Positions 13,540 through 46,849 of a stretch of 64,000 nucleotides of DNA are shown here, in pieces. The notes beneath the pieces are model-generated. The model was not told the origin of the DNA. It ran no database searches and saw only the letters and a program-made list of their open reading frames with translations. The stretch is from Heliorestis convoluta (GTDB lineage Bacteria > Bacillota > Desulfitobacteriia > Heliobacteriales > Heliobacteriaceae), in contig NZ_CP045875.1 in NCBI RefSeq assembly GCF_009649955.1, positions 787,501 through 851,500 on the forward strand, in the 5' to 3' direction. Numbering within the stretch: the stretch's first letter is position 1; each line of letters starts with the position of its first letter. The translations under genes and the position numbers were made by a program.

Positions 13540-13603
13540 TGTGGATAAGTGCTTGTAGCCTTGCGATGTTAGGAAAAACCTCTGTGGATAACCATGTGGA
13601 TAA
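13540..13603. promoter_or_regulatory. DnaA-box group between dnaA and dnaN (oriC second part)
   Basis: Three perfect TGTGGATAA boxes lie at 13540-13548, 13583-13591 and 13595-13603, the last two only 3 bases apart. An AT-rich stretch lies between this group and the end of dnaA. Bacillus subtilis has a bipartite origin flanking dnaA with the unwinding element on this side, so this is likely the second half of oriC. Confidence 0.75.
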
Positions 13604-13625: not shown

Positions 13626-14966
13626 TTATTTTCGCTGAATTTTTTCTTTCAATAGCTGTAGAGCCATCTCTAATTGTGGGTTTTTTTGTCGTTCTTTGCT
13701 GATTTTTTCGTGGGCGTGAATGACCGTCGTATGGTCTCTTCCACCAAATTCTTCACCTATTTTAGGTAAAGAGATATCCATGAGTTCTCTCGATAAATAC
13801 ATAGCGATTTGTCGAGGAAAGGATACATCACGGGTTCGTTTTTTCGCTTTTAGATCTTCTACTCTGAGATTATAGTGCTCTGCTACGATTTCTTGAATCA
13901 GAGCAATCGTAATGGGCTTGATCTGATTGGCTGGCATAATATTGCGAAGTGCTTCTTCAGCCAGTTGAATGGTCAGCTCTTTTTTTGATAGAGAAGAAAA
14001 AGCCATGATGCGGTTTAGCGCACCTTCTAGCTCCCTTATGTTTGATTGAATGGTGTTGGCAATAAAAGCAATCACTTCATTGGGGACTTCTAAGTTTTCA
14101 ACCATCGCTTTTTTTCGTAAGATGGCAATCCTTGTTTCTAAGTCGGGCGCATTGATATCAGTAATCAAGCCCCATTCAAAGCGACTTCGCAGTCGGTCTT
14201 CTAATGTTGGAATTTCTTTAGGAGGACGATCAGAGGAGATAATAATTTGTTTATTGGCTTCATGGAGAGCATTAAAAGTATGGAAAAACTCTTCCTGGGT
14301 TCGCTCTTTACCAGCTAGAAATTGAATATCATCAATCAACAAAACATCGATATTGCGATATCGATTTCTAAAATCAACCGTTTTATCGTCTCGAATGGAA
14401 TTGATCATTTCATTCGTAAACTTTTCCGATGATACATACATAACTTTTGTCTGCGGCCACTGGTTAATTACGTAATGGCCAATGGCTTGCATTAAGTGGG
14501 TTTTTCCCAATCCAACACCGCCATAAATAAAGAGCGGGTTATAAGCTTTTGCGGGAGATTCAGCTACAGCAAGAGAAGCAGCATGAGCAAAACGATTAGA
14601 ATTGCCCACTACAAAGGTATCAAAGGTGTACTTGGGATTTAATTGTGGTTGAAAATAATCTTCATCATTATGGGCAGGCCGTTGCTTTGTTTTTTCATTT
14701 TGACTGCTTTCTTGGTTCGGTGAGAAAAAATGAAGCTCAATAGGATGTCCGACAACGACAGAAAGAGAGTTCTTGATTAAGGTTGCATAACGGTTTTCCA
14801 GCCAGTCTCTAGCCAAATCGTTCGGAACAGCAACATAAGCGTCGCGGTCTTGAATCGAGACAAGCTGTGTGTTTTTCAACCAAGTGTCAAAACTCTCCGG
14901 GTTTAGTTCTTGTTTTAATATCTCCAAAGTTTGCTGCCAAAGACCTGCGATCTGTGTTTGTGCCAC
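13626..14966 (-). CDS. dnaA: Chromosomal replication initiator DnaA
   Basis: The 446-residue initiator has an N-terminal domain I ('[22 protein letters not shown]'), a short variable linker, and an AAA+ core with Walker A '[17 protein letters not shown]' and Walker B '[15 protein letters not shown]'. The C-terminal DNA-binding domain carries '[24 protein letters not shown]'. The start is GTG at 14966. DnaA boxes on both sides suggest autoregulation. Confidence 0.97.
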
Positions 14967-15489
14967 CGATCCATACCCCCAAAACGGATATTAACAAATT
15001 CTCCACTGTTCTATCCCCGTGGATAAAACAACAAAAAGCTTTATGCATAAGGATAATCGCGAAAAAAGCGATTATTATCCACAAAAAACATTAGACTGAA
15101 TAATTTTCAACAGAGGATAAAGTATAAGAAAAAAATGATCCACCAAAGAGGCCTTAAAAAAGTGGAATTAAAAACAAAAAAACACACAATTTATCCACAG
15201 CCTGTGGAGAAAAGGGTAGAAAAGTCTTGTATAGCAAGGGTTACACACCTGTGGAAAAGTTTCATCCACAATTGTACAGTCTTACTGAGTTATCCACAAG
15301 GGGATAAGTGTCGAAAGACATCTATTTTACCCACATTTTTGAATGCTTCACTTTATGTCGCCACTTTTCTTGACTTGTTACGGCTATTCGAATATAATAG
15401 GTGTGTTTGTTAAGTGCTGTCAGGTCAACCTATTGGCAGGATGTATAAAAAACCATCTGGATCAACAACATACTAAGGAGGTGTTTCGT
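14967..15489. other. oriC: Replication origin (oriC) in the dnaA-rpmH spacer
   Basis: The 523-base spacer between divergent dnaA and rpmH holds no credible gene. It has three perfect DnaA boxes TTATCCACA (15075-15083, 15191-15199, 15290-15298). Several near matches add to these, including 15018-15026, 15203-15211, 15250-15258 and 15262-15270. AT-rich blocks lie between them. Divergent essential replication genes around such a cluster define the origin in Bacillota. The exact unwinding element was not located. Confidence 0.88.
15370..15398 (+). promoter_or_regulatory. Promoter of rpmH
   Basis: TTGACT (15370-15375), a 17-base spacer and TATAAT (15393-15398) form an almost perfect sigma-A promoter about 90 bases before the rpmH start. 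Confidence 0.85.
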
Positions 15490-21950: not shown

Positions 21951-22068
21951 ACGAAAATAGATTTTTCATCATTGGTTGTGCCCGGGCGGGCATGAGGGGT
22001 TAACACGAAAATAGCATTTTCATCATTGGTTGTGCCCAACCGGGCATGACTGGTTAGTACGAAAATAG
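21951..22068. repeat. 54-bp tandem repeats after rsmG
   Basis: Two 54-base units (21951-22004 and 22005-22058) start with ACGAAAATAG, and a third start is seen at 22059-22068 before a palindromic element interrupts. Each unit carries a small hairpin around GTGCCC...CGGGCAT. The core TTTTCATCA..TGGTTGTGCCC is also found inside the two 107-bp repeats downstream, so these are related elements. No coding potential was seen. Confidence 0.8.
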
Positions 22069-22080
22069 CTACCCTGTGGT

Positions 22081-22197
22081 GGGGCAGGCGTTATGATTTC
22101 CTTCCGAACGGACTCATCCCACGCCATGAGCGGCAGCAAGCTGCCGATGGCTGTAGGTCTGAAGTCCTCTCCTCCAGGAAGTCATAACGCCTGCCCC
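22081..22197. repeat. Dispersed palindromic element, full copy
   Basis: This 117-base element has 21-base inverted ends (22081-22101 and 22177-22197, one mismatch) starting GGGGCAGGCGTTATGA. It has an inner palindrome CGGCAGCAAGCTGCCG. Partial copies lie at 28031-28080 and 50190-50284. It codes for nothing visible and looks like a small non-autonomous or REP/MITE-like repeat. Confidence 0.8.
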
Positions 22198-22300
22198 AGG
22201 TACATCTTGCTGGTTGTGACTGAGTTTTGGCCTATTGCAAATGCAATAGACAGTTGATTTTCATCAAATGGTTGTGCCCGACCGGGTATGATGGTTTAAT

Positions 22301-22339
22301 AAAAAAACAGTTTGGTTTTATAGACCAAACTGTTTTTTT
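22301..22339. terminator. Strong hairpin terminator, first copy
   Basis: A 16-bp stem (22301-22316 with 22324-22339) has A7 at the outside left and T7 at the right, so it can stop transcription from either side. It separates the rsmG operon from the partition locus. Confidence 0.85.
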
Positions 22340-22407
22340 ATTTTATCATGCAATAGACAGTTGATTTTCATCAAATGGTTGTGCCCGACCGGGTATGATG
22401 GTTTAAT

Positions 22408-22446
22408 AAAAAAACAGTTTGGTTTTATAGACCAAACTGTTTTTTT
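22408..22446. terminator. Strong hairpin terminator, second copy
   Basis: This is an exact copy of the previous hairpin, 107 bases further on (arms 22408-22423 and 22431-22446). It lies 10 bases before the first parS site. Confidence 0.85.
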
Positions 22447-22456
22447 ATTTTATCAA

Positions 22457-22976
22457 TGTTCCACGTGGAACATCAGTACAAGTGGTAATATAGATTTAAG
22501 CAAGGAGCATATCAAAGAGCTGCTTAATGTTCCACGTGGAACATCAGTACAAGTGGTGATATAGATTTAAGAAAGAGCATATCAAAGAGCTGGTTAATGT
22601 TCCACGTGGAACATCAGTACAAGTGGTAATATAGATTTAAGCAAGGAGCATATCAAAGAGCTGCTTAATGTTCCACGTGGAACATCAGTACAAGTGGTAA
22701 TATAGATTTAAGCAAGGAGCATATCAAAGAGCTGCTTAATGTTCCACGTGGAACATCAGTACAAGTGGTAATATAGATTTAAGCAAGGAGCATATCAAAG
22801 AGCTGCTTAATGTTCCACGTGGAACATCAGTACAAGTGGTAATATAAATTTAAGCAAGGAGCATATCAAAGAGCTGCTTAATGTTCCACGTGGAACATCA
22901 GTACAAGTGGTAATATAGATTTAAGCAAGGAGCATATCAAAGAGCTGCTTAATGTTCCACGTGGAACATCAGTACA
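22457..22976. repeat. parS: Tandem array of eight parS sites (centromere-like)
   Basis: Eight copies of the 16-base palindrome TGTTCCACGTGGAACA start at 22457, 22528, 22598, 22669, 22740, 22811, 22882 and 22953. The spacing is 71, 70, 71, 71, 71, 71 and 71 bases. The DNA between them is also repeated and nearly identical, with a 1-base deletion in the second unit and a few substitutions. The palindrome matches the known parS of chromosomal ParB in Bacillota. The array lies upstream of parA-parB and should be a strong ParB loading site. Chromosomal parS sites are usually single and scattered; tandem iterons are more like plasmid centromeres. Confidence 0.95.
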
Positions 22977-23280: not shown

Positions 23281-25854
23281 TTGACTCAAATCATTGCAAT
23301 TGCGAATCAAAAAGGTGGAGTAGGAGTGCGTCCGTAAAGGAACTTTCTATATCGTCCTTAAAGGGATTTCAGAGTAGAGAGAACTCTGAATGGTCAACTG
23401 ACTTACCTAAGATGGAAACATTGCAAGGGAACATAGCATGTCAGTAAAGCCTGTGGTTTCATAGCTAGCAATGGAACAGACAGGCAAGACCAAGAAGTGA
23501 TATGGCTAAGGCTACACTGCTTGAAACCCAGTCTCTTGGCTTTAACCACGGGGTACACAGAAGCTAGTTGATATGTGTATGAGAGCCTGTTATGCAAGAA
23601 TTTTCCTATGACTTGTATACTCTCTACAAGCTCTCCGGCGTATTGTAGATACGTTAAAGAGACGAACGGGTGCCTACGTCACTTTTATTGTATAGAAAGA
23701 TCTAAACGGAGATAGTCTACGTCGATCAAAGCAATCGATAGGGCTACGGAGCTTCCATAGTAGTTTGAGGTAGGGAAAGCCTACTACATGGCGAAGGGAA
23801 GCAGGTTATTCAATTGACAAATTATAGAGGTGTGCGAAATGCAAAAGGCCGAAGTAGTTTTGTCAATACTAAGCGAACAATCAAAAATAAATAAAGACTA
23901 TCGCTTTGACAGACTTTATAGAAATTTTTTTAATGAAGATTTTTATCTACATGCATACAAAGAATTGCTGAATCATGAGAAAAGCTATAAGAATATATCA
24001 CTTGATTGCTCTACTATAAAAGAGCAAATCATTCTTATGAAAAAAGAAGGTTACAAAACATTATTAAAGAAAAAAAATAAAAATACAAATGATGATCTAT
24101 TCATTAACCTCTTACTAAGAATAACAAACATCTTATTAAGAAAAATTTACGAACCTCTTTTTCTTAAATATTCTTATGCTCTATCTCAACCAGTCCATCA
24201 TTATACTCCACTAAAGCAAATCAAAATAATTGGAAGTAGAAAGAACTGGGTCATACAAGGAAATATAGATAAGGCAAGCGTCGCTAGTGATCACAATAGC
24301 TTGGCTTTTTTATCTATTAAAATTAATGATGGAAGAATTCTAGAACTAATAAAAAGCTTCATAGCAACAGGCTATCGAATTCCAGTTATTACAGATATTT
24401 ATCTATATACAATTGATCAACAAATTAACAATAAGTGCACTGAAAAAGTGTTTTATTGTCGCTATGAAGAAAACTTATTATTTCTGATCGATTCGACGAA
24501 AAAGGAAGCTCTAGAAATACAAGAAGAATTAAACAGAACGATATCAAATGTAACGAAAGGGACTTGGTCATACCAATTGACGAACTGGAATGATCAAAGT
24601 TTTATATTTTTAGATTACGAAATCCGAAAAAATAAATTAGTACACTCGAAAGAATCGAACGTACAACTTCTTGTACCTTCTTCCAAGATTAAAGAAAAAA
24701 TCAAGCCTTTTACTGCCCAGGGTAAACCCAGACACCACAATCGAAGAATAAACCTTCCTACTAGAGAAATAGTAAAGCTTTATAATGATGAAATTACTCA
24801 ACTATATCAATATTATGGACTGGCCGAGGACGTAAAAAAGAAAATACGTAGTTTTAGGTATTATCACTATAGAAGTTTACTGAAAACAATTGCAAGAAAA
24901 GAAAAAAGCACTGTTCCCAAGATAATTAAAAAATACGCTTTTTCGATAAATGAAAAAATTGATTGTGATCAGTATTTCTATCAATTTGTATGTAAGTAGA
25001 TAAAAATAAAAATTACAGATTTACAAGGTTCGCTTAGGAATGACTGGAGAGCCGGATACATTGAAAGGTGTACGTCCGGTTCGGAGGGGGATCATTAGAA
25101 ACCTGATAAACATCAAGGCGCTGTTGATCTACCCTACAAAACAACAACAACAGTTAACTTAGGTGCTTGCTTAGCTGAATTAGATTATTCTGTTCTTCTC
25201 GTTGACATGGATCCGCAAGGTAATAGCTCAAGTGGACTTGGAATTGATAAATTAAAGCTACAACACTGTATCTATGACGTTCTTATCAATGGTGCGCCAC
25301 CGGAGTCGATTATTCACAAAGCTGTTATTGAAAATCTCGATGTCTTACCAGCAACGATACAATTGGCTGGTGCCGAAATAGAATTAGTATCAGCCATCTC
25401 TAGAGAAGTCAAGTTAAAAAAAGCACTTGAGTCACTGGGCGATCAATATGATTACATAATTATTGATTGTCCACCTTCTCTCGGATTGCTTACATTGAAT
25501 GCTCTAACGGCGGCCAACTCGCTTTTAATCCCTATACAATGCGAGTATTATGCCCTTGAAGGAGTAAGCCAATTGATGAGTACCATTAAACTTGTACAGC
25601 GTCATCTCAATCCAGATTTAACTCTTCTAGGCGTGTTGCTTACAATGTTTGACGGAAGAACAAATCTAAGCATACAAGTAGTAGAAGAAGTAAAAAAACA
25701 CTTTCAAGAGCAAGTCTTCAAAACAATCATTCCACGTAACGTGCGCTTAAGTGAAGCGCCTAGCCATGGCCAACCTGTGATTCTCTATGATACAAGATCA
25801 CGAGGTGCAGAAGTTTATCGTGAAATGGCAAAGGAAGTGATTTTACGTGGCTAA
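23281..25854 (+). CDS. parA: Chromosome partition ATPase ParA (Soj), split by a group II intron
   Basis: Exon 1 is 23281-23325 (TTG start behind AGGTGGTG, 15 codons: MTQIIAIANQKGGVG). Exon 2 is 25138-25854 (KTTTTVNLGACLAEL...). Joining them restores the deviant Walker A motif KGGVGKTTT and a 253-residue protein, the normal Soj length, with 'LLVDMDPQGNSSSG' and 'DYIIIDCPPSLGLLTLNAL' following. Between them lies a complete group II intron, between codons (phase 0). Without splicing, translation would read three intron codons and stop at TAA (23335-23337), giving an 18-residue peptide. ParA drives segregation of ParB-parS complexes and regulates DnaA in Bacillus. It overlaps parB by 8 bases. Confidence 0.93.
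23839..24999 (+). CDS. Intron-encoded maturase with degenerate reverse transcriptase
   Basis: The protein of about 386 residues aligns by eye with group II intron proteins at both ends. At the start it has RT0-like 'LYRNFFNEDFYLHAYKELL', then 'IYEPLFLKYSYALSQPVHHYTPLKQIK', which matches the RT2 region (EPIF..SYGFRP..S.H.AL). At the end it has a well-kept domain X: 'PTREIVKLYNDEITQLYQYYGLAEDV' and 'YRSLLKTIARKEKSTVPKIIKKY'. The catalytic core is gone: 'VIQGNIDKAS' replaces the first-Asp motif, RT1 and the PQGG block are missing or contracted, and YADD reads YEEN. No HNH endonuclease follows. I infer a splicing-only maturase. The start is ATG 23839 behind AGAGG. The gene is clearly AT-richer than its neighbours. 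Confidence 0.85.
   Translation: MQKAEVVLSILSEQSKINKDYRFDRLYRNFFNEDFYLHAYKELLNHEKSYKNISLDCSTIKEQIILMKKEGYKTLLKKKNKNTNDDLFINLLLRITNILLRKIYEPLFLKYSYALSQPVHHYTPLKQIKIIGSRKNWVIQGNIDKASVASDHNSLAFLSIKINDGRILELIKSFIATGYRIPVITDIYLYTIDQQINNKCTEKVFYCRYEENLLFLIDSTKKEALEIQEELNRTISNVTKGTWSYQLTNWNDQSFIFLDYEIRKNKLVHSKESNVQLLVPSSKIKEKIKPFTAQGKPRHHNRRINLPTREIVKLYNDEITQLYQYYGLAEDVKKKIRSFRYYHYRSLLKTIARKEKSTVPKIIKKYAFSINEKIDCDQYFYQFVCK
25049..25137 (+). ncRNA. Group II intron domains V and VI
   Basis: Domain V is a 34-base hairpin that starts GAGCCGGA, has a GAAA tetraloop and ends TCCGGTTC, with the AGC catalytic triad and a two-base bulge on the 3' side. Domain VI follows: GGGGGATCA (25086-25094) pairs with TGATCT...CCC, leaving A25131 bulged as the expected branch point. 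The intact structure suggests that the ribozyme can still splice. Confidence 0.9.
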
Positions 25855-26818
25855 AAAAGGGCTGGGGCGAAGCTTAGGCAAAGGACTTGACGCTTTAATT
25901 CCATCGTTACCTCAAATAAAGCAAGAAGAAGATGATCAAAAAGAAGAGGTATCCGAAATCACTCTAGAACAAATCGACCCCAACCCGGAACAACCTCGCA
26001 AAAACTTCGAACCAGAAGCACTTGCTGAGTTGGCTAGTTCCATTCAAGAGCATGGCCTAATACAACCCTTGGTAGTAAGGTCTGTAGGAAAAGGTCGCTA
26101 TCAACTGATTGTTGGAGAAAGAAGATGGCGTGCCTGTAAATCCATTGGATTAAATAAAGTCCCAGTGATTATAAAAAATTGGGACGATCAAAAAGTAGCA
26201 GAAATTGCTCTAATTGAAAATATTCAAAGGAAAAACTTAACACCTGTAGAAGAGGCTGAAGCGTTTCGCAGTTTACTTGAAGATTTTTCACTTACTCAAG
26301 AAGAACTAGCCAAACGAGTTGGCAAAAGCCGCACTTATATTACCAATTCGTTGCGTCTTTTACAGTTGAACGAAAAAGTTCAGTCCATGATTAATATGGG
26401 TCAGATCACGACGGGTCATGCGAAAGCAATAATGGCTCTATCAGATGGGCAAGATCAAGAATTGATGGCACAGACCGTACTAGAAGAAGGCTGGTCTGTT
26501 CGCAAGACCGAAGATCAGATTCGAGAAAAATTGGGTAGAGAGAAAAAAGTAAAAGAGCCTCTCGATGAAAATAACAGGGGTTATGGAGAGGTAACTGTCA
26601 ATCCAAAAGATAAAGATATTCCTGACAAAGGAAGGGCTGAAAAAAGAACTTATAAAGATCCAGAAATTATTGCACTAGAAGAAAGAATGCGTACCTGGTT
26701 AAAAACACAAGTTAAGATCAAGCACTACGGAGAAAAAGGAACGATAGAAATCTCTTATTATAGCCTCGAAGATTTACAAAGAGTTTTTGACTGTTTTTTT
26801 GATGAACAAGAGAAGTAG
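25847..26818 (+). CDS. parB: ParB/Spo0J chromosome partition protein
   Basis: The 323-residue protein has the N-terminal CTPase/ParB domain with 'EQIDPNPEQPRKNF', 'SIQEHGLIQPLVVR' and the CTP-binding box 'GERRWRA'. A helix-turn-helix follows ('TQEELAKRVGKSRTYITNSLRLL') that should read parS, and then a C-terminal dimerisation region. The GTG start lies inside the end of parA. Nine palindromic parS sites flank the locus. Confidence 0.96.
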   Translation: MAKKGLGRSLGKGLDALIPSLPQIKQEEDDQKEEVSEITLEQIDPNPEQPRKNFEPEALAELASSIQEHGLIQPLVVRSVGKGRYQLIVGERRWRACKSIGLNKVPVIIKNWDDQKVAEIALIENIQRKNLTPVEEAEAFRSLLEDFSLTQEELAKRVGKSRTYITNSLRLLQLNEKVQSMINMGQITTGHAKAIMALSDGQDQELMAQTVLEEGWSVRKTEDQIREKLGREKKVKEPLDENNRGYGEVTVNPKDKDIPDKGRAEKRTYKDPEIIALEERMRTWLKTQVKIKHYGEKGTIEISYYSLEDLQRVFDCFFDEQEK

Positions 26819-26823
26819 ATAAT

Positions 26824-26853
26824 CTTTCAATGTTCCACGTGGAACATTGAAAG
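26824..26853. promoter_or_regulatory. parS: Ninth parS site, inside a longer palindrome
   Basis: TGTTCCACGTGGAACA at 26831-26846 is extended on both sides by a 7-base inverted repeat (CTTTCAA and TTGAAAG), giving a 30-base palindrome. It lies 5 bases after parB and before the next gene, 3.9 kb from the tandem array. Confidence 0.92.
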
Positions 26854-46406: not shown

Positions 46407-46608
46407 TACTATTATGTAGTCCCACGCAGGCCGTCACTGTAACGTTTTCTAACCTGATGCTCTCAGGTGGGTGCTTCGTCTATAGGGATTTGCCCTCCTG
46501 TTAAACAGGCCCGGCAGCACCTATATGAACAAAAGCTCCCGTTTATACAATATCGATTGAAAACATTAAAAAGCAACGAACCCCGCAGGGCGTCGGTAAC
46601 CACCGACA
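46407..46608 (-). ncRNA. ssrS: 6S-like regulatory RNA
   Basis: The 359-base spacer between spoIIR and tRNA-Sec has no gene, but its minus strand has a good promoter at one end and a terminator at the other, about 200 bases apart. The RNA reads CTGCGGGGTTCGTTGC near its 5' end. Near its 3' end it has GCACCCACCT, a small hairpin, then GTTACAG and CCTGCG. In E. coli 6S RNA the same order is seen (GUUCG near the 5' end; CACCU, hairpin, GUUACAG, CCUGCG near the 3' end). 6S RNA binds the housekeeping RNA polymerase in stationary phase. Ends are approximate. Confidence 0.7.
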
Positions 46609-46751: not shown

Positions 46752-46849
46752 GGGAGTGCATAGGTCCTGGTGGGCTTCCTGGGCTTCAAACCCACGTGGC
46801 GCGCGGCAACCCCGGGCGCGGTAGGTTCGATTCCTACACACTCCCGCCA
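46752..46849 (+). tRNA. selC: tRNA-Sec (anticodon TCA)
   Basis: The 98-base RNA has acceptor GGGAGTG paired with CACTCCC, a six-base-pair D stem with the TGGT loop, and an anticodon arm GGG-CTTCAAA-CCC with TCA at 46786-46788. It also has a long GC-rich variable arm (about 46796-46820), the T arm GTAGG-TTCGATT-CCTAC and an encoded GCCA end. The eighth acceptor pair would be a C-A mismatch. The long variable arm and UCA anticodon identify selenocysteine tRNA. Confidence 0.96.

Follow-up and report, generated by a model that had tools for sequence, protein, structure and literature searches.

Eight tandem parS sites beside an intron-split parA gene: a putative chromosomal centromere in Heliorestis convoluta

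Introduction

What could a bacterial chromosome gain from eight parS sites packed into half a kilobase before parA? The question is raised by a 64,000-nucleotide stretch of Heliorestis convoluta DNA (here called the window), corresponding to positions 787501-851500 of a single contig of 3,218,981 bases; the chromosome of strain HH was published as circular, plasmid-free and of the same length (PMC7143216). Although one parS suffices in several species, most genomes have many. The initial annotation of the window regarded chromosomal parS sites as normally single and scattered, a view at odds with published work, as parS sites are clustered within 5-40 kb in most bacteria with scattering as the exception (PMC8357415), and Myxococcus xanthus has 22 of them in 3 kb (PMC3899335). 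The family Heliobacteriaceae, represented by nine genomes (G000, which is H. convoluta, and G001-G008), allows a natural comparison of whether ParB condensation and SMC loading depend on the number of sites at one point.

Results

The parS array and a ninth site

The perfect 16-bp palindrome TGTTCCACGTGGAACA is present in eight exact copies at positions 22457-22968 of the window (a feature assigned to neither strand), with starts at 22457, 22528, 22598, 22669, 22740, 22811, 22882 and 22953 and hence steps of 71, 70, 71, 71, 71, 71 and 71 bp. The linkers between the palindromes are repeated as well (mean identity 0.97), and TRF reported a period of 71, 7.4 copies and 97% matches. The initial description of eight perfect parS sites in a 71-bp array next to parAB, with the same palindrome and a repeated linker in each unit, was thus confirmed, except that one step is 70 bp; regarding the span given for it, 22457-22976, the start was correct while the last palindrome ends at 22968 and the last base of the tandem repeat is 22977. 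The array contains no ORF of at least 80 aa, and a coding repeat was rejected on this ground.

A ninth perfect parS, likewise without strand, is located 3' of parB at 26831-26846, between parB and a nifS-like gene and within the 30-bp perfect palindrome CTTTCAATGTTCCACGTGGAACATTGAAAG. Shuffled sequences contained on average 0.20 matches at up to 3 mismatches, compared with the nine exact sites found, and none of 100 shuffles gave nine parS matches. These nine sites, all within one 4.4-kb locus, are the complete set in the 3,218,981-bp genome, even with 2 mismatches allowed.

The DNA flanking the array is full of duplications in the form of 54-bp and 107-bp repeats, including two identical 107-bp repeats immediately before the array (22241-22454, plus strand), each with an intrinsic-terminator-like hairpin. 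Surroundings of this kind favour a neutral tandem expansion, in which parS would be functional but its copy number a by-product of slippage or unequal recombination without an effect of its own, an explanation weighed below against the arrays of related genomes. Positions 22000-22256 contain a truncated copy of a dispersed element of about 460 bp, a full copy of which is found at L190:400-860. About 40 near-full copies, 89-98% identical, are present in the H. convoluta genome; the element consists of two imperfectly inverted halves that fold as one long hairpin (-218 kcal/mol, z -8.75), has no Rfam match, and is represented in G007, G001 and G002 by fragments only.

That the array is an assembly artefact, the true chromosome having fewer units, is highly improbable. 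The array-bearing relatives are known from draft assemblies, which would favour such an error, but comparable arrays do occur in them, and the H. convoluta sequence is one closed contig of the published 3,218,981 bp (PMC7143216). The units also carry private differences, unit 2 being 70 bp long with several changes and unit 6 having one change, and units that are not all identical on a single contig argue against a simple duplication artefact.

Origin, ParB and neighboring genes

The gene order at the locus is mnmE, mnmG, rsmG, the repeats, the array, parA, parB, the ninth parS and the nifS-like gene. As the GC skew of the window is too weak to place the origin by itself, the origin was placed by dnaA (14157-14642, minus strand, Bac_DnaA domain) together with DnaA boxes TTATCCACA on both sides of this gene (13540-13603 and 15075-15298), which mark the probable oriC. 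The perfect DnaA boxes and dnaA are about 7-9 kb from the array, and the nine parS sites are at 7-12 kb from the DnaA boxes. Elsewhere in the window, Rfam detected adjacent genes for a selenocysteine tRNA (46752-46845) and 6S RNA (46415-46594).

The parB/spo0J gene (25847-26818, plus strand) encodes a protein of 323 aa with Pfam matches to ParB_N, HTH_ParB and ParB_C (1.8e-37, 5.2e-37 and 3.5e-10), thus including the C-terminal dimerisation domain, and its translation contains IVGERRWRAC, corresponding to the CTP-binding motif GERRxRA. Alignment with Spo0J, Noc and solved structures identified the specificity residues as R and G (GKSR; MGQITTGH) and not the Q and R of Noc, the rule that separates parS-binding proteins from Noc (PMC7383237). 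Judged by these residues, the H. convoluta ParB is of the parS-binding type and belongs to a Soj/Spo0J-type chromosomal ParABS system. It is the sole strong ParB_N match in the genome; a Noc identity was rejected for it on account of its parS-type residues and a score under the Noc cut-off. Similarly, nucleoid occlusion through Noc and NBS sites was rejected, the sites being CACGTG-centred parS at one locus and not of the TATTTCCCGGGAAATA type. A second, weak ParB_N protein (34 bits, 433-aa frame) is encoded outside the window at G000:C1:1170815-1171060. ScpA is present in the genome, and the SMC-ScpAB machinery is therefore expected.

The array ends about 310 bp before the parA start, and most of its linkers contain promoter-like matches on the minus strand that point away from parA. 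Both observations would suit an operator, the main role of the parS block upstream of parA then being to silence or autoregulate parAB transcription through ParB. This role is improbable, as the arrays of G001 and G002 are found downstream of parB and not at the parA promoter, so that position is not conserved as that of an operator would be; furthermore, the promoter matches represent one A+T-rich motif multiplied by the array, and the minus strand has no nearby ORF of at least 80 aa.

A group II intron within the Walker A motif of parA

The initial annotation took parAB to be intact, missing the intron described here as well as the ninth site and the absence of parS from the rest of the genome. 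The parA frame stops after KGGVG and restarts at KTTTT. Exon 1 (23281-23325, plus strand, TTG start, MTQIIAIANQKGGVG) ends within Walker A, and exon 2 (KTTTTVNLGACLAE..., 25138-25854, plus strand) belongs to an ORF listed from 25207. Between them, separating the G and the K of KGGVG/KTTT, lies a group II intron of 1812 nt (23326-25137, plus strand; Rfam RF00029, 64.5 bits) with domain V/VI at 25047-25137, this domain V, and with it the group II intron, being the only one in the genome. The predicted splice junction joins ...GGTGGAGTAGGA to AAAACAACAACA..., and the Walker A P-loop is complete only across it, while relatives without the intron have a parA that reads uninterrupted at the exon junction. 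With the gene split in this way, parA is predicted to be expressible only once spliced.

The intron encodes a maturase of 389 aa (23830-24999, plus strand) which has retained domain X (Pfam Intron_maturas2, 2.4e-9) and lost its reverse transcriptase motifs: in alignment YADD is replaced by YEEN and GTPQGG is absent, and no RVT_1 match was found in the maturase or anywhere else in the H. convoluta genome. The congener G007 has an intron at the same site of parA that is likewise degenerate (YEDQ, no RVT_1), and G008, from another genus, has a same-site intron with GDIKGFFDNID, GTPQGG, YADD and a strong RVT_1 match, its ORF being crossed by an assembly gap of 100 N. Exon 1 of G008 reads KGGVA in place of KGGVG, a change to Walker A unless the draft genome is in error here. 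Codon differences between the G000 and G007 maturases lean to third positions (148/110/207). Conservation is also higher at the two protein ends, including domain X, than in the reverse transcriptase middle (about 0.6 vs 0.3-0.4); on both counts selection appears to act on the maturase, presumably to preserve splicing.

The pattern of the intron ends in parA was found only in H. convoluta among 398 Bacillota genomes, a sample that left out G007 and G008, both of which have it. A 2015 review described degenerate bacterial maturases as rare, with O.i.I2 in radC as the only example (PMC4424553). The parA intron fits the MatK-like and O.i.I2 class of introns with degenerate maturases, having domain V, a maturase that keeps domain X but not the reverse transcriptase motifs, and an open ORF, and is likely to have been domesticated within this bacterial housekeeping gene, retaining splicing only. 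The locus would thus represent a rare case in which a probably domesticated intron occupies the active-site motif of such a gene, with a reverse transcriptase-bearing intron at the same site in another genus.

parS arrays across the Heliobacteriaceae

Counting parS in the whole genome and in relatives, as the initial annotation had proposed, gave 9 sites in H. convoluta and 2-9 across the nine family genomes, the totals for G000-G008 being 9, 8, 9, 8, 7, 6, 8, 4 and 2 (five in G007 with one relaxed match). All nine genomes have parS, all sites found sit at the parAB locus, and the synteny mnmG-rsmG-parA-parB-nifS is identical throughout. The layout comprises 8 x 71 bp before parA in G000, 8 x 67 bp in G001 and 9 x 69 bp in G002, both between parB and nifS, and, in G006, 5 x 39 bp before parA with three further sites beyond parB; the sites of G003-G005 are loosely grouped, some of them 35-37 bp apart. 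Helical phasing of the sites was rejected, since no whole number of helical turns is common to the spacings of 36-39, 67-69 and 71 bp.

Regarding the linkers, those of G001 and G002 are related to each other (z 10.8), those of G000 are unrelated to either (z 0.9 and -0.3), and the 23-bp linkers of G006 are different again, the comparison of G000 with G006 giving z 3.0 yet an alignment score near zero. Since the linkers of G000, G001/G002 and G006 show no convincing relationship, the regular arrays, as read from these alignments, represent at least three separate amplifications and arose independently at least three times in the Heliobacteriaceae. A role of the linker as a second conserved element was rejected, the linkers of the 71-bp and the 67-69-bp arrays being no closer than shuffles.

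One parS position is uniform within each genome, reading TTCC/GGAA in G000, G001, G002 and G006-G008 and TTTC/GAAA in G003-G005 (a single site of G004 is mixed); this C-or-T half-site position differs between genera, as if all sites had switched together (L023-L031). In G007 (L029, position 5360 after reversal) a parS lies exactly within the stem of a hairpin resembling a terminator (AAAAGCGA-parS-TCGCTTTT, with T-rich DNA after it), and this centromere site may double as a transcription terminator.

A parS pair at 62-92 bp was found in 12 and a pair at 32-61 bp in 33 of the 398 sampled Bacillota genomes; in those from outside the family each search gave two such pairs at most, and no array of the size seen in H. 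convoluta was present. When about 85,000 genomes were scanned for three successive parS at 42-72 bp, at least 120 loci in many phyla were obtained, so close parS triplets are not rare and uniqueness of the array was rejected. Among the loci listed, most have three sites only, with dissimilar linkers, and a few are regular arrays of 6-15 units, namely 15 x 36 bp (L098), 13 x 43 bp (L100), 12 x 42 bp (L156), 9 x 57 bp (L142) and 6 x 43 bp (L115), of which L142, L115 and L156 are within reach of genes for ParA and/or ParB.

The evidence on neutral expansion can now be set out in full. Besides the duplicated flanks, it is favoured by the near-identity of the G000 units, which fits a recent expansion, by the range of site numbers in the family, from 2 to 9, and by the sufficiency of one parS for segregation in Pseudomonas aeruginosa (PMC4368675) and Corynebacterium glutamicum (PMC7083940). 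Among full-length G000 units, 0 of 16 parS columns and 1 of 55 linker columns vary (P=1), too alike to reveal selection, so the H. convoluta array could be such a recent neutral product. Against this, regular arrays of 5-9 units occur at different positions in at least three lineages of the family, no genome from outside it had more than two close pairs among the 398 sampled, and in the older G002 array all nine palindromes are perfect while the linkers decay, with variable columns at 0/16 in parS vs 26/53 in the linker (Fisher P=2e-4); similarly, G006 has 0/16 vs 7/23 (P=0.03). Overall, neutral expansion is a serious but rather unlikely explanation.

Capture of the array and parAB from a plasmid or phage, as the layout resembling sopC of plasmid F might suggest (PMC6238139), is barely credible. 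The synteny described above is conserved in 9/9 family genomes, the nearest ParB among those compared is that of the congener (64%), and 72,556 plasmid records gave no match to the array, nor did 50,697 phage records match the array plus right flank.

Discussion

Clamps of CTP-bound ParB are loaded at parS, slide along the DNA and recruit SMC. The array is very probably the chromosomal centromere of H. convoluta, a putative, near point-like loading site for ParB. In its CTP-dependent cycle, ParB would start from the eight neighbouring parS and the one past parB, close as clamps and slide into the flanking DNA. A single dense partition complex would form in this way at about 7 kb from oriC, which ParA would segregate and at which SMC-ScpAB would load. 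Eight sites in 0.5 kb would act as a near point-source for both ParB and SMC, and would also prevent the collisions of SMC that may result when loading sites lie apart (PMC8357415). The array itself would grow by repeated tandem amplification of the parS-plus-linker unit, with selection holding the palindrome and leaving the linker free. We infer binding of ParB, the strength of its loading, point-source loading of SMC and any advantage of the array.

Strong loading of ParB by the array, as the initial annotation expected, is plausible: ParB loading increases with site number, and in vitro condensation by ParB occurred at 7, 13 and 26 parS, but not at 1, 2 or 4, and scaled with number (PMC8299390). 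Similar arrays formed independently in relatives suggest that packing many sites at one point is useful. On the other hand, G007 has 4 sites (5 with relaxed matching) and G008 has 2, so members of the family can do without a long array. It is a tentative and rather doubtful proposal that heliobacteria repeatedly made plasmid-like arrays because condensation or SMC loading needs a threshold of about seven or more sites at one point; if correct, the family would provide a natural dose series of 2, 4, 6, 7, 8, 8, 8, 9 and 9 sites for the question of redundant parS.

Comparison with known systems

No paper on parS in heliobacteria was found in the literature. The regular arrays of uncultured Bacilli (L098, L100), of a Pseudobacteriovorax MAG (L115) and others are like that of H. 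convoluta in regularity and in the similarity of linkers within an array; their unit lengths differ from that of H. convoluta, for which reason the L098, L100, L156, L142 and L115 arrays were probably formed independently.

The 22 sites of M. xanthus lie about 4 kb from parA, and the cluster is bound by ParB in vitro (PMC3899335). As in H. convoluta, this is a chromosomal ParABS system with many parS packed near parAB and the origin; however, spacing in M. xanthus is looser (a mean of about 140 bp, calculated from the reported span) and additional sites exist elsewhere, whereas H. convoluta has a strict 71-bp repeat in 0.5 kb beside parA and no parS outside the locus.

The sopC centromere of plasmid F is served by a plasmid ParB of another type, with a different palindrome. 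It consists of twelve 43-bp repeats (parS-F) with ten 16-bp ParB sites (PMC6238139) and shares with the H. convoluta array the regular direct repeats, one 16-bp palindrome apiece, serving ParAB. The comparison with plasmid iteron centromeres in the initial annotation therefore stands regarding sopC (PMC6238139), while the term iteron is wrong, as repeats of ParB centromeres are not replication iterons. Unlike sopC, the array is part of a 3.2-Mb chromosome, with a Spo0J-type ParB and the universal parS motif.

In C. glutamicum, ten parS are found in 35 kb (PMC7083940); its main sites are likewise chromosomal, origin-proximal and in one cluster feeding ParB and SMC, but they are spread over those 35 kb and form no tandem repeats. 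Bacillus subtilis has the same ParB family and the same consensus motif, but its parS are scattered widely over the chromosome (PMC8357415), in contrast to the 4.4-kb locus of H. convoluta. Thus, the observation made in the initial annotation is confirmed and its interpretation partly supported: the H. convoluta array is real and uncommon, though not a new kind of centromere, clustered parS being already known.
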